A stretch of DNA of 64,000 bases from an uncultured Flavobacteriales bacterium (GTDB lineage: Bacteria > Bacteroidota > Bacteroidia > CAIKAF01): assembly GCA_903837495.1 (NCBI GenBank), contig CAILUT010000009.1, positions 1 through 64,000 of the forward strand, written 5' to 3'. The notes beneath the pieces were generated by a model. That model had not been told where the DNA came from. It made no database searches and worked only from the letters and a program-made list of their open reading frames with translations. Within the stretch, counting starts at the first letter, position 1; each line of letters starts with the position of its first letter. The position numbers were made by a program, and so were the translations under genes. This document shows, piece after piece, positions 671-50,955 of the stretch.

Positions 671-820
671 GGCCTTGCGCCCCCGACAGAGGCGGCAGTA
701 TGCACGCAGGCGCCCGGTTGTACCCGGTTGAGGAGGCGACTTTAGGAGCCACCGCAAACCGCAGGTACAACCAGGGCGGCGCGGGCATGCTAGAGCCGAT
801 GGCGGGAAATGGCGCCCCAA
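671..820 (+). repeat. Structured intergenic repeat, copy A
   Basis: Core gaggcgactttaggagccaccgc; inverted repeats GGTTGTACC(716-724)/GGTACAACC(764-772), CGCCC(711-715)/GGGCG(774-778), CGGTT(725-729)/AACCG(757-761). Confidence 0.8.
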
Positions 821-17460: not shown

Positions 17461-17612
17461 CGGGGCTGCGCCCCCGATTGAACCGGCATTGGCTGAACGG
17501 GAAAGCCAGCCGGCCTTTGCCGAGGAGGCGACCAGGGGGAGCCACCGCAGGCAAACAGGCCGGCAGCTTGACCGAAAGCCAATACAGGTGAAAGCGGGAA
17601 TTGGCGCCCAAA
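17461..17612 (+). repeat. Structured intergenic repeat, copy B
   Basis: gaggcgaccagggggagccaccgc core; GCCGGCCT(17509-17516)/AGGCCGGC(17557-17564), TTTGCC/GGCAAA, ATTGGCT(17488-17494)/AGCCAAT(17577-17583). Confidence 0.8.
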
Positions 17613-22963: not shown

Positions 22964-23113
22964 GGGCGGGATACCGGGCTTTCTCCGGTAGTCCGCGGTG
23001 CTCAGTGGCAGGTCCAGCGGCCTTGCGGTGGCTCCTGAAGTCGCCTCCGCGGCACGCGGAACCTGGCACTTCGCCCCTTGCGGGCTACCGGTTCAATCCC
23101 GCCCGCGGGCGGC
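22964..23113 (-). repeat. Structured intergenic repeat, copy C (reverse orientation)
   Basis: ggggcgggataccgggctttctccggtagtccgc...gcggtggctcctgaagtcgcctccgc...gggctaccggttcaatcccgcc. Confidence 0.8.
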
Positions 23114-40080: not shown

Positions 40081-41268
40081 ATGAAGTATTGCTTGATCCG
40101 CGAACGAAAATCCCCACCCGATTTCCGATGTCCTTTAAATCCTGAGCAGGCAATGGCTTTCGCTAAAAGCAACTCCAACGTCTCAATTTGGGCCGAATCT
40201 TCGGCCCACCGCTGCTTTTCCGATGCCGAGTTTTTGCAACAAGGCATAGCCTTGGCCGAAGGAAAGCCCGCCCAGGTCTATTTGGGCATTAAAGAGGTCC
40301 CACCCTCTGCACTGATTCCCAATTCTACCTATTTCTTTTTTTCGCACACCATCAAACGGCAACCGCAAAATCGGGAACTTCTGCAAGCTGTGCTGCAAAA
40401 CAACATTCGCCTTATCGATTACGAATGCCTGCGCGATCCCCAAGGGCAACGCCTCATCGGCTTTGGGTTTTATGCCGGGGTGGTGGGGGCCTACAATACC
40501 CTGCGCACGTTTTCCTTAAAAACCCAACAGCAGCCACTGCCGCATTCTGCCCAGCTGCAAAGTCGAACGCACATGGATCAAGTTCTATCCGATTGGTCGG
40601 TTCCAGACCTGCGCATTGTACTTACCGGGCAAGGGAAGGTGGCTCAGGGCGCGCTGTCTATTTTAAAGCAATTGAATTTTATCCAGCTTGAACCCCATCA
40701 GGATTTCCCAGAAACGGGACGCTGGGTTAAAATCATCGATTACCATCAATACAATGTTCGCATTCAAGACGGGGGCTTCGATGCGGCCGAGTTTTATGCC
40801 CAGCCACAGCTGTACCAAGCCCGTTTTTTGCCTTTTTTATCCAACGCTCAAATTCTTCTCACAGGGCATTTCTGGTCTGCCGATTCTCCCCGCTTTTTAA
40901 GCCCAGAACAGCTCGGCAGCACTCAGATTTTGGTTGTGGGCGACATCAGCTGCGATGTCAACGGCCCTTTGCCCTGCACGCTGCGGCCCTCTACTTTACA
41001 GGAACCCGCCTATGGTTGGGACAAAATCAGCTTTCAGGAAACCGATTTGATTAAGCCTTCCGCCATCGCGGTTATGGCGGTCGATAACCTGCCTGCGGCA
41101 TTGCCGGCCGATGCTTCCAATCATTTTGGTACAGCACTGCTCCCCATTCTTCAAGCCTTTGAAAAACAGCCCAATGCCCCCGTTTTTGAGCATGCTACCA
41201 TTGCCCAAAATGGAGCACTTATGCCCAAATACGCGTATTTACAGGCCTGGGTTGATGGGTTGGAGTAG
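40081..41268 (+). CDS. Alanine dehydrogenase/saccharopine dehydrogenase-like NAD-dependent oxidoreductase
   Basis: N-term LIRERKSPPDFRCPLNPEQA; YLGIKEVPPSALIPNSTYFFFSHTIKRQPQNRELLQ; GVVGAYNTLRTF. Confidence 0.75.
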   Translation: MKYCLIRERKSPPDFRCPLNPEQAMAFAKSNSNVSIWAESSAHRCFSDAEFLQQGIALAEGKPAQVYLGIKEVPPSALIPNSTYFFFSHTIKRQPQNRELLQAVLQNNIRLIDYECLRDPQGQRLIGFGFYAGVVGAYNTLRTFSLKTQQQPLPHSAQLQSRTHMDQVLSDWSVPDLRIVLTGQGKVAQGALSILKQLNFIQLEPHQDFPETGRWVKIIDYHQYNVRIQDGGFDAAEFYAQPQLYQARFLPFLSNAQILLTGHFWSADSPRFLSPEQLGSTQILVVGDISCDVNGPLPCTLRPSTLQEPAYGWDKISFQETDLIKPSAIAVMAVDNLPAALPADASNHFGTALLPILQAFEKQPNAPVFEHATIAQNGALMPKYAYLQAWVDGLE

Positions 41269-41410
41269 GGCGGCTGCGGGCTTTCGCAGGTAGTCCTCGG
41301 TGCTCGGCTCCGCCGGCAGCCGGCTGCGGGTAGCTCCCAAGGTCGCTCCCACAGCCCCGCGCCGGCAGGGCCTTGCCCCTGTGGGCTACCTTGCTCTATC
41401 CCTGCCGCTC
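41267..41410 (-). repeat. Structured intergenic repeat, copy D (reverse orientation, abuts upstream stop codon)
   Basis: gggcggctgcgggctttcgcaggtagtcctcgg...gggtagctcccaaggtcgctccc...gggctaccttgctctatccctgccgc. Confidence 0.7.
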
Positions 41411-44877: not shown

Positions 44878-45027
44878 GGCCTGCGGTAGGGATTGAACCG
44901 AGTAGCCCGTAAAGGCCTGGGGCCTGCGTGCGCGCGACAGGCAGGGCGACCTTGGGAGCCCCTGCCTGGCCGCTGCACGCAAGCCCCAGGACTGCGGACT
45001 ACCGGTGAAAGCCCGGCAACCGCCCCC
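44878..45027 (+). repeat. Structured intergenic repeat, copy E
   Basis: CCTGGGG(44916-44922)/CCCCAGG(44984-44990), GCGTGC(44926-44931)/GCACGC(44975-44980), AGGCAGGG(44939-44946)/CCCTGCCT(44960-44967); conserved ends. Confidence 0.85.
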
Positions 45028-45035
45028 AAAAACCC

Positions 45036-46982
45036 CTATCTTTTTTGCAAGATGATGCGTTGAATTATTCTGAAATCGTCTTTGAACAGAGCCAAATAGT
45101 ACATTCCAGAGGGCAAGTGGCTGATGTCGGGGCGGAAATCGCTGCCGCGTTCGATGCTCCAGGTTTGCACCACGCGGCCGCCCAGGTCGAGCAGATGCAT
45201 GGTGCTGCCTTGAAGGTTGCCGCCCTCTAAGCGCAATTGAAATGGGCCGGTGCTGGGATTTGGGAATACGGTAAGGCGGATGCCGTCGGGGTTGCTGTTG
45301 TTGGGCTGGTCTTGCAGTTGCTCGAACCATTTTTCAACGTAGCGAACTTGATTGCTGTCGATGCTGGGGTTTTCAGGTTTGCTGCAATCGGGCATCCATG
45401 TAAATCGGTAAAGGATGTCGGCCAACAGGGCATTCAGCTTTTGCACGTTGAGCGAAGCGGCGACGGGTGCGCGGTGGCTGCCGCCCACTTTGCTGTCGTC
45501 GGTTAAGCTGGTATAGGTTCCGTTGGTGGCCAGGGCGATGGACCGCATTAAGAATTCGGCGCTGGCGTCCATGCCGCTGCAAGCCAAGGTAACGATGCGA
45601 ATGCCTCTGGCGGCAGCTTCGGCTGTAAGGGTTTGCATGCGGATTTTAACCAATTCATCTTGGTGGGGAGGGGCGTCCAAGGCAATGAACAGGATGCGGG
45701 TGCGTGCTTCGGGGTTCCAGCTCAGTCTGCGAAGGGCTACTTCAAGGGCCTCGTCAACGGCTTCGGGAAAATCGCCTCCGCCGCCGGCGGCTTGTGCACT
45801 GAGGAAAGAACGGGCGGCCGAGCCTTTTTCAAAATCTTGAAAGCGCGTTAGGTACTCATCGCCATGGTCGCGGTACACCACGGCAGCGGTTCTGAATTCT
45901 AGGGTTGAGTTGCGGGCAATGGCTTTTTGAATCACGTCGTCGAGTTCCGATTTTAGGTAGTTTAGTTCATCGCCCATGGAACCGGTGGCGTCCACCACAA
46001 ATGCGACATCTACTTTGTTTGAGTTTCGGCAGGGTAGATTTAAGGTAAATTCCAATTGCCTTGTTCTCCAACCTTTGGCTGGGGCGTCGAAGTTCTGGCG
46101 GGTTTGGGTTCCGGGTTTTCCGGCCACAAGGGTCCATTTTCCTTTTACCTGAGCTGAATCGCGGAACAAATGGGCCCACAATTCGGCGTGGCCTTGGTTG
46201 TCGGTTAGGGCGCTCCACATTAAATTTCCGGAAGGGCCAATCAAGTCAACGGGAACGTTGGCAAGAGGCTGGCCTTCGCTGCCTTGCACATACACCGCAG
46301 TGCGGAAACGGGGGAAAAGGCTCCAGGCCTTGCCGCCCGACAAAAGGGTAGGCAGGGCGCTTTTTTCCCAAAAGCTCCATTGCAAAAAATCATTGACTTC
46401 GCCGGCAGTCAGCGTTCCTGCCCCCGGGGCAACGGGGCTTGGACTGTCAGTGGCAACCGAACCACTGCGCGATTCCATCCGTTCAGATTCTGCCGCCATG
46501 GGTATGGCATCGTAGGCAACCGAGCGGCTGGCTTCCCGTTTGTATTTGGTTGAAGGCTTGCCTTCGGTTGTTGAGCTGCTTAATTTTCGGGAATCAAATT
46601 CGTGGTTGGAATGTGTGGGCAAGTCGGGAGGGGCTTGGGCAAAAAAGCCGGGTTTTAAATCGAGGGCATGCAATTGGGGGTTGCTGTCCACCGTTAGGAA
46701 CCAGCGTCCGAAGGACTGCATGCCGGTGCTTTGGATGTCGAGGCGGTAAAGGCCTGGTCTTAAATCAATCCAAAGGGTGTCTCCGGGCAAGCGTTCTCCG
46801 CCAAAAACAAGGCTGTCGTTGTGGTATAAGGTGAAAATATGGGCTTGGTCGGAAAACCGTGGACTTGCTTTTGTGCTGAAAACGATGCCTGAAAGGGGCA
46901 GGCGTTCTTTTGGAGTTTTAATTCCTGCAAGGGCCCAAAGGGTTGCAAGGAATGCGGTGGTAAGAACAAGGTAATTTCTCAT
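45036..46982 (-). CDS. VWA-domain secreted protein with T9SS C-terminal sorting domain
   Basis: KVDVAFVVDATGSMGDELNYLKSEL (MIDAS-like DxTxS variant); TVFPNPSTGPFQLRLEGG..GMYYLALFKDDFRIIQRIILQKR. Confidence 0.85.
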   Translation of the reverse strand: MRNYLVLTTAFLATLWALAGIKTPKERLPLSGIVFSTKASPRFSDQAHIFTLYHNDSLVFGGERLPGDTLWIDLRPGLYRLDIQSTGMQSFGRWFLTVDSNPQLHALDLKPGFFAQAPPDLPTHSNHEFDSRKLSSSTTEGKPSTKYKREASRSVAYDAIPMAAESERMESRSGSVATDSPSPVAPGAGTLTAGEVNDFLQWSFWEKSALPTLLSGGKAWSLFPRFRTAVYVQGSEGQPLANVPVDLIGPSGNLMWSALTDNQGHAELWAHLFRDSAQVKGKWTLVAGKPGTQTRQNFDAPAKGWRTRQLEFTLNLPCRNSNKVDVAFVVDATGSMGDELNYLKSELDDVIQKAIARNSTLEFRTAAVVYRDHGDEYLTRFQDFEKGSAARSFLSAQAAGGGGDFPEAVDEALEVALRRLSWNPEARTRILFIALDAPPHQDELVKIRMQTLTAEAAARGIRIVTLACSGMDASAEFLMRSIALATNGTYTSLTDDSKVGGSHRAPVAASLNVQKLNALLADILYRFTWMPDCSKPENPSIDSNQVRYVEKWFEQLQDQPNNSNPDGIRLTVFPNPSTGPFQLRLEGGNLQGSTMHLLDLGGRVVQTWSIERGSDFRPDISHLPSGMYYLALFKDDFRIIQRIILQKR

Positions 46983-50426: not shown

Positions 50427-50644
50427 TTTACCCTTAAAATTTAGGGGTAAAAGTAAGAAATTGCTTTGTTTTTTTGGGATATGCCTTTAAAAAATGGGGG
50501 TTTTTTGGGGAAATTAAAAAAACAAGGTTGGGGAGTGAGGGGTTGGGTGGCTGCTCGTTTCTGCAGTAGCGAGGTATGCCAATTCAGCCCATTTTTGGGG
50601 ATTGAATTGAATGCAATCGGTTATTGGTCGATGTTGTTTTTTTA

Positions 50645-50794
50645 CGCCGCCTGCGGCAGGGATTGAACCGGATAGCCGGAAAGGTTGCCGGCTTGCTGCC
50701 CGCGTGGCGCGGAGGCGACTTTAGGAGCCACCGCAAGCCCGCTGGGCAGCTGGCCGGCAGCCGCGGACTATCGGTGAAAGCCCGCAGCCGCCCC
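50645..50794 (+). repeat. Structured intergenic repeat, copy F
   Basis: GCCGGC(50687-50692)/GCCGGC(50753-50758), GCTGCCC(50695-50701)/GGGCAGC(50744-50750), GCGG(50709-50712)/CCGC(50731-50734); core gaggcgactttaggagccaccgc. Confidence 0.85.
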
Positions 50795-50835
50795 TAAAAA
50801 AAACATTTTACCTGAGCCGGATTGCCTAGGGCCGT

Positions 50836-50866: not shown

Positions 50867-50881
50867 TGTTTATTGAAGTTG

Positions 50882-50955
50882 TAGCGAGGACGGGAGTTGA
50901 ACCCGTGACCTCAGGGTTATGAATCCTGCGCTCTAACCAACTGAGCTACCTCGCC
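50882..50955 (-). tRNA. tRNA with CAT anticodon (tRNA-Met class); CCA not encoded
   Basis: ggcgaggtagctcagttggttagagcgcaggattCATaaccctgaggtcacgggttcaactcccgtcctcgcta folds as cloverleaf. Confidence 0.93.

Follow-up and report, generated by a model that had tools for sequence, protein, structure and literature searches.

The six repeats in the window, by which we mean the whole stretch of 64,000 nucleotides analysed here from the genome of an uncultured Flavobacteriales bacterium, are filed, on sequence comparison, as a long (about 145 nt), GC-rich and amplified branch of the Flavo-1 family (RF01705), although they are not members by the Rfam cut-off. The relationship to Flavo-1 is very probable. 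The evidence points to what we regard as the most useful claim of this work, namely that elements of the Flavo-1 type behave as DNA and not as RNA, in a family that Rfam covers only distantly. Constraint probably acts at the DNA level, and a host function of some kind appears reasonably likely. Taken as a whole, the proposal is that of a long Flavo-1 branch whose constrained object would be a DNA hairpin, renewed by copying and kept for a job in the host, and we favour it with moderate confidence.

The initial annotation had described six copies of about 150 bp, and all of them are recovered by a covariance model built from 28 copies (R1), which sets the borders given here, at E values from 1e-10 to 1e-29. 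The type copy, F (50651-50795, plus strand), scores 145.3 bits (E 1.2e-29), and its fold (50640-50800) reaches -91.8 kcal/mol with a z score of -5.2; the z scores of the six copies lie between -4.5 and -6.5, and no shuffle folds as well. In the fold of copy F, the foot GCGGC (50653-50657, +) pairs with GCCGC at 50787-50791. The 5′ loop module GGGATTGAACC (50659-50669, +) faces the 3′ loop module GGTGAAAGCCC (50773-50783, +), both in invariant columns, and the apical module GCGAC-TTTA-GGAGC (50715-50728, +) holds tandem G-A beneath its tetraloop. The 5′ module reads as a tandem G-A internal loop, and the alignment of Flavobacterium homologues identifies it as homologous to the outer module of Flavo-1. 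A tRNA-Met gene (50881-50955, minus strand) is found about 90 nt downstream of this copy.

Copy C (22964-23108, minus strand; 132.1 bits) has convergent genes on both sides, and 9 nt separate the 3′ end of copy E (44881-45026, plus strand; 126.5 bits) from the stop codon of 45036-46982(-). Copy D (41266-41410, minus strand; 102.7 bits) is antisense to the gene that ends at 41268 and covers its final bases at the stop codon. Copies A (675-817, plus strand; GCGCCCCCGACAGA ... GATGGCGGG; 69.4 bits, E 2.6e-13, fold z -5.8) and B (17466-17609, plus strand; 57.2 bits) belong to a swapped-foot subfamily with GCGCCCCCGA..GCGGG in place of GCGGCAGGGA..GCCCG, the swap itself being a paired change. The common ends and core attributed earlier to all six copies are found in C to F, whereas A and B share the loops and the core region with them and differ at the foot. 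The ORF at 700-2184 has its annotated 5′ end inside copy A, and its true start is probably further downstream. In the relative G002, the sites of copies D, E and F are also occupied, as is the orthologous site of copy B, where the two elements are 86% identical.

Each element is a single hairpin, 142-148 nt long in 164 of 165 copies. The outermost part is a foot that pairs as GCGGC/GCCGC, or in swapped form as for instance GCGCC/GGCGC, inside which stands GGG/CCC, CCC/GGG or CGG/CCG. Next inward comes the loop module GATTGAAC / GTGAAAGC, which reads as G-A and tandem G-A mismatches around two pairs; these two pairs covary (T-A, G-C, A-T). Another paired block follows, then a long stem whose sequence is free, and at the tip the apical module GC-GA-C-NNNN-G-GA-GC, with TTTA as the tetraloop in 64 copies, CTTG in 54 and mostly GNNA in the remainder. 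The stem runs through all four Watson–Crick pairs, and double-sided changes occur at 33 of 40 pairs. Covariation, proposed earlier as a check on the family, is present beyond chance: 176 cells show double-sided changes among the 28 copies, where shuffles give 52.5 ± 5.4 (0/500), and the signal is lost when the arms are slid.

Further copies, for which a search of the genome and of relatives had been suggested, are present far beyond chance in a genome-wide search. The genome of the window (G000) comprises 67 contigs totalling 2.51 Mb. Allowing at most one mismatch, the core GCGACYTTNGGAGC is found in it 214 times, compared with 5 for a reversed control, and the three-part motif GGATNGA..GCGACNNNNGGAGC occurs 212 times, compared with 0 for the control. 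Full reading of 826 kb of this genome and 761 kb of G002 gave 79 and 86 copies, respectively. In these samples the density is about one copy per 10 kb, or 1.4-1.6% of the DNA, which extrapolates to about 240 copies per genome of 2.5 Mb. Since many contig ends fall inside copies (contigs C12, C22, C24, C25, C35, C44, C52 and C55), the copy number for G000 is a minimum; the repeats probably broke this assembly. The family is present in each of the six species sampled from the genus, a group of freshwater relatives of Flavobacterium, with a divergent form in G001 and G004.

A survey of 399 genomes of the phylum with a strict motif returned essentially this genus alone plus two Flavobacterium matches. 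The motif was too strict and missed AT-rich homologues, which were then found by a broader covariance model (R2) whose training set includes two Flavobacterium copies: it has matches in 18 of 21 Flavobacterium species, with up to 18 per genome. These homologues share the same anatomy at about 147 nt with AT-rich stems, and R1, the window model, detects copies in Flavobacterium with E values of 5e-8 and 1e-5. A scan of 15 Flavobacterium loci against Rfam gave 14 whole-model matches to RF01705, with scores of 25.8-41.6 bits (35.4-41.6 for 13 of the loci) where the gathering cut-off is 42 bits; L067, a copy from a different genus within the taxonomic family of the window, likewise matches the full model at 32.3 bits. 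The aligned module common to Flavo-1 and the long forms of Flavobacterium is GAUUGAAG.GGAAA .. GGAAAGC. None of the window copies reaches the 42-bit cut-off, the best being copy B (24.4 bits, E 0.89), and the link to Flavo-1 therefore rests on the intermediates. The earlier statement that the repeats could not be assigned to a named family needs revision in that they are homologous to an Rfam entry through these intermediates; it stands in that the window copies themselves fall below any threshold.

Flavo-1 (RF01705) was proposed as a candidate on computational grounds (Weinberg et al. 2010; PMC2864571) and is still listed as an sRNA without function (PMC9029176). It shares with the window family the outer module GAUUGAAG.GGAAA /.GCGGAAAGC with a paired foot, and it is likewise dispersed and from the same phylum. 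The window family differs in its length of about 145 nt instead of 76, which is fixed, in a conserved apical module GCGA-loop-GGAGC, in its GC-rich composition, in its roughly 240 copies per genome, and in that the evidence favours DNA over RNA. As it lies under the Rfam cut-off, the family is unannotated today.

The initial annotation placed all six between genes, and across the enlarged set of 165 copies from G000 and G002 DNA none is inside a called gene. Among the 156 that can be classified by their neighbours, 90 point their 3′ end at the stop codon of an opposite-strand gene, at a median of 14-22 nt and mostly within 50 nt. The others lie about 70 nt past a stop or about 70-110 nt ahead of a start, and the sense strand of the loops is mostly antisense to the adjacent gene. 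The elements adjoining stop codons could act in mRNA, much as REPs near stop codons affect mRNA in Escherichia coli.

RNA helices tolerate G-U far more than A-C. When the arms were aligned by a symmetric score and pairs inside the helices of the elements were counted, 25 G-U and 25 A-C were found beside 2,033 Watson–Crick pairs, out of 2,263; a stricter count gave 18 G-U and 11 A-C out of 936. The tRNA stems of the same genomes, used as a control, contain 15 G-U and 2 A-C out of 221, a difference from the elements that is significant (Fisher p 6e-7). In the AT-rich stems of Flavobacterium, G-U is found 6 times and A-C 21 times (mostly as C-A) out of 258. Between the four gene-orientation classes, differences in G-U are small and inconsistent, and the counts are low. 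The argument is indirect, and strand-symmetric selection or arm-templated repair could also remove G-U.

Transcription gives a similar picture. A TAnnTTTG box within 60 nt upstream and reading into the element, as expected of an own promoter, was seen at just 6 of 165 copies, and the orientation of the copies does not track transcription. Published RNA-seq of F. psychrophilum places Flavo-1 matches sense or antisense alike to transcribed regions, with many outside them (PMC9723704), which agrees with the DNA-like wobble pattern. Stems that are Watson–Crick only, the lack of an own promoter, the orientation of the copies and this RNA-seq together argue for a DNA hairpin rather than an RNA. The constrained form would be a hairpin that is single-stranded or extruded as a cruciform. 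Sheared G-A pairs and TTTA, CTTG and GNNA loops would also be favourable in DNA hairpins.

A structured RNA, which is how Rfam treats Flavo-1 and one of the natures suggested for the repeats at the outset, would be either an independent ncRNA or a 3′-UTR hairpin that stabilises or processes mRNA. The structure and its covariation are real, the RNA fold is strong, CUUG and GNRA tetraloops occur, and a role in 3′ UTRs would suit the 90 of 156 copies that adjoin the stop of an antisense gene. However, wobble is not tolerated, the elements lie in both orientations to genes with the loops mostly antisense to the neighbour, no link to transcription emerges, and the sequence that follows is A-rich rather than U-rich, so that we disfavour this reading and consider it quite improbable. 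An intrinsic terminator was also rejected, for the 3′ flank, being A-rich with almost no G and no T run, is the wrong way round; a simple terminator finder, itself of low sensitivity, showed no difference.

If the constrained molecule is DNA, the annotation of Flavo-1 as one of the abundant "small RNA" families is wrong, and its function becomes a question of DNA structure; the entry may thus be misclassified as RNA. The comparison of G-U with A-C would also be a simple screen for other Rfam candidates that may be DNA motifs.

Paired arms could in principle be kept complementary without any selection, by template switching or hairpin-templated repair (quasi-palindrome correction). Such a self-maintaining palindrome would explain why double-sided changes greatly exceed one-sided ones (176 versus 15 cells) and why G-U and A-C are equally rare. 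Unbiased correction would, however, erase the tandem G-A mismatches, which are fixed in nearly all copies and in Flavobacterium, and we regard this explanation as very improbable. Comparison of two close species, G002 and G003, in which the element is present in both at all six aligned sites, also speaks against it: the few changes within elements are mostly one-sided, which likewise led us to reject concerted double mutation as the mechanism, and the elements change more slowly than their flanks. Divergence is 1.3% within the elements (11/873), compared with 9.8% in flanks, 14.6% in other intergenic DNA and 19.0% at third codon positions, from which strong constraint on the elements follows; at first and second codon positions it is 3.0%.

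Over a greater distance, the sites persist while their occupants are exchanged. Between G000 and G002, with a median protein identity of 77%, 12 orthologous intergenic regions are occupied in both genomes and 4 in one only. At 6 of the 12 shared sites, the orthologous elements are 0.62-0.73 identical and the best paralogues within the same genome 0.77-0.94, and identity between paralogues reaches 98%. In close paralogues, identity ends at the hairpin feet with no evident target duplication; the empty G000/G002 sites are too diverged to be read for target-site duplication, and the element ends are palindromic. Retention of sites with replacement of occupants points to gene conversion or to hairpin-specific copying. 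The shared sites contain 72 double, 18 single and 80 broken changes, and these counts are not used as main evidence for covariation because they are blurred by whole-stem replacement at half of the sites. A copy process would accordingly renew the elements as a unit ending at the hairpin feet, either through gene conversion between copies or through ssDNA-hairpin transposition by a putative enzyme.

The second of these routes recalls REP, BIME and REPIN elements with RAYT (TnpA-REP), which are also high-copy intergenic palindromes in both orientations, often near the 3′ ends of genes, with a hairpin presumed to be recognised as DNA. The window family is several times longer (142-148 versus 21-65 nt), has no GT[AG]G foot, is not the cognate REP of the resident RAYTs and is present in a genome without detectable RAYT. 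Other hairpin systems offer more distant parallels. ERIC is an imperfect intergenic palindrome of about 127 bp for which we know of no mobiliser; it resembles the window family in form and position but is from another phylum and has another sequence, the window family having sequence-free stems with fixed loops and length. The attC site of integrons is a folded ssDNA hairpin in which pairing outweighs sequence and unpaired positions serve as landmarks. It is alike in principle, whereas the window elements are about 10 kb apart and not in cassette arrays.

A REP-like non-autonomous mobile element, a hairpin that a Y1 (HUH) transposase would cut and paste or copy as ssDNA in trans, would owe its conservation to recognition by the enzyme and not to a host job. 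The REP/MITE-like nature put forward earlier is borne out as far as the repeats are dispersed, intergenic, palindromic and found in both orientations; it fails on the foot, the flank logo of the elements showing no GTAG, and on the resident RAYTs, which have other REPs. High copy number and near-identity of paralogues up to the feet would suit such an element, and recognition of an ssDNA hairpin would account for Watson–Crick-only stems. Moreover, RAYT genes of the Bacteroidetes subclass 2.6 are reported to have atypical, genome-repeated secondary structures on their flanks (PMC6006769), and in G001, G002 and G004 an element is found no more than about 300 nt from several Y1 genes, which keeps the mobile-element reading alive. 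On the other hand, G005 and G014 are rich in elements, and no Y1 gene was found in G005 or in G009 even with a sensitive profile, nor in G014 at the Pfam level. Retention at 12 of 16 informative orthologous sites, at a rate of change slower than that of first and second codon positions, is likewise unexpected for a parasite. We therefore consider mobility of this kind an unlikely explanation.

Two RAYT genes were identified in G000, both outside the window (G000:C5:48464-49183 and G000:C47:127004-127990); sensitive profiles were needed, as Pfam Y1_Tnp at 1e-3 missed them. In each, copies of its own canonical GTAG REP interrupt the gene in frame (GTAGAGACGCA..TGCGTCTC, with 18 in the sampled DNA, and GTAGGGGCAGG..), an arrangement described for RAYT subclass 2.4 (PMC6006769). 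For this reason they are not obvious partners of the 145-nt hairpin, and RAYT/REP was rejected as the sole explanation. Among 30 Flavobacterium Y1 loci, none has a full-length element within about 1.5 kb. One 64-nt match (L277:645-708, Flavobacterium G435), a GC-rich hairpin matching R2 about 0.8 kb from the Y1 gene, may be a different REP. In G001 (L188, L189) and G004 (L190, L193), an element lies 40-280 nt downstream of single-copy Y1 genes of the IS200-related type. At locus L183 of G002, an element (1981-2125) and a RAYT gene with a YIHQNP motif (2281-2913) are 156 nt apart; this RAYT resembles the subclass of Bacteroidetes for which flanking "atypical secondary structures" are reported. 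No RVT_1 match to a reverse transcriptase was obtained in G000, and hence no support for a group II intron, retron or DGR-type retroelement. The search for related transposons covered Y1 and reverse transcriptase genes.

Returning to a DNA hairpin kept by the host, the distribution of the copies along the chromosome is relevant. Measured over about 1.6 Mb of two genomes, with genes called by a home-made program, spacing is more even than chance, with a coefficient of variation (CV) of 0.675 compared with 0.879 ± 0.064 for random intergenic gaps (0/2000). After merging of close pairs and weighting of gaps by their length, the CV is 0.633 versus 0.885 ± 0.063 (0/1000), and the evenness remains for spacings beyond 4 kb (p 0.006). 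The six close pairs all have the "-+" arrangement. No bias with respect to the replication strand is detectable, the skew being too weak.

The third nature originally envisaged, a nucleoid or DNA element, is the best fit to Watson–Crick-only stems and even spacing; the rest is what we infer. A protein would recognise the hairpin by its loops and fixed length, and insertions would be kept because of a host job at the borders of transcription units. The search for a protein that binds the hairpin found none. The preferred job would be that of a structural site in the DNA, placed roughly once in 10 kb between transcription units, at which superhelical stress is absorbed or marked, with a transcript or 3′-end boundary role as second choice; a role in chromosome topology specifically is a tentative suggestion, and doubtful as it stands. 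More speculative still, Flavo-1 and the long form might together constitute a selected DNA-hairpin (cruciform) system across the Flavobacteriales, in which a dedicated protein would read G-A loops set a constant distance apart and the roughly 240 evenly spaced sites of this genus would organise superhelical domains or chromosome folding. Some 240 evenly spaced, strongly conserved hairpins at transcription-unit borders are a natural test system for the functions of cruciforms and ssDNA hairpins in bacterial chromosomes.

Short canonical Flavo-1 gave no match in plasmid and phage collections. Short forms of about 78-91 nt match R2 in other genera of the family or class (L068, L069, L071, L079 and L080), with a size like that of canonical Flavo-1 and not of the long form. 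In five IMG/VR viral or prophage contigs (L314-L318), a Flavo-1-like or long-form motif was seen by pattern, and L314 alone also scored with R2.
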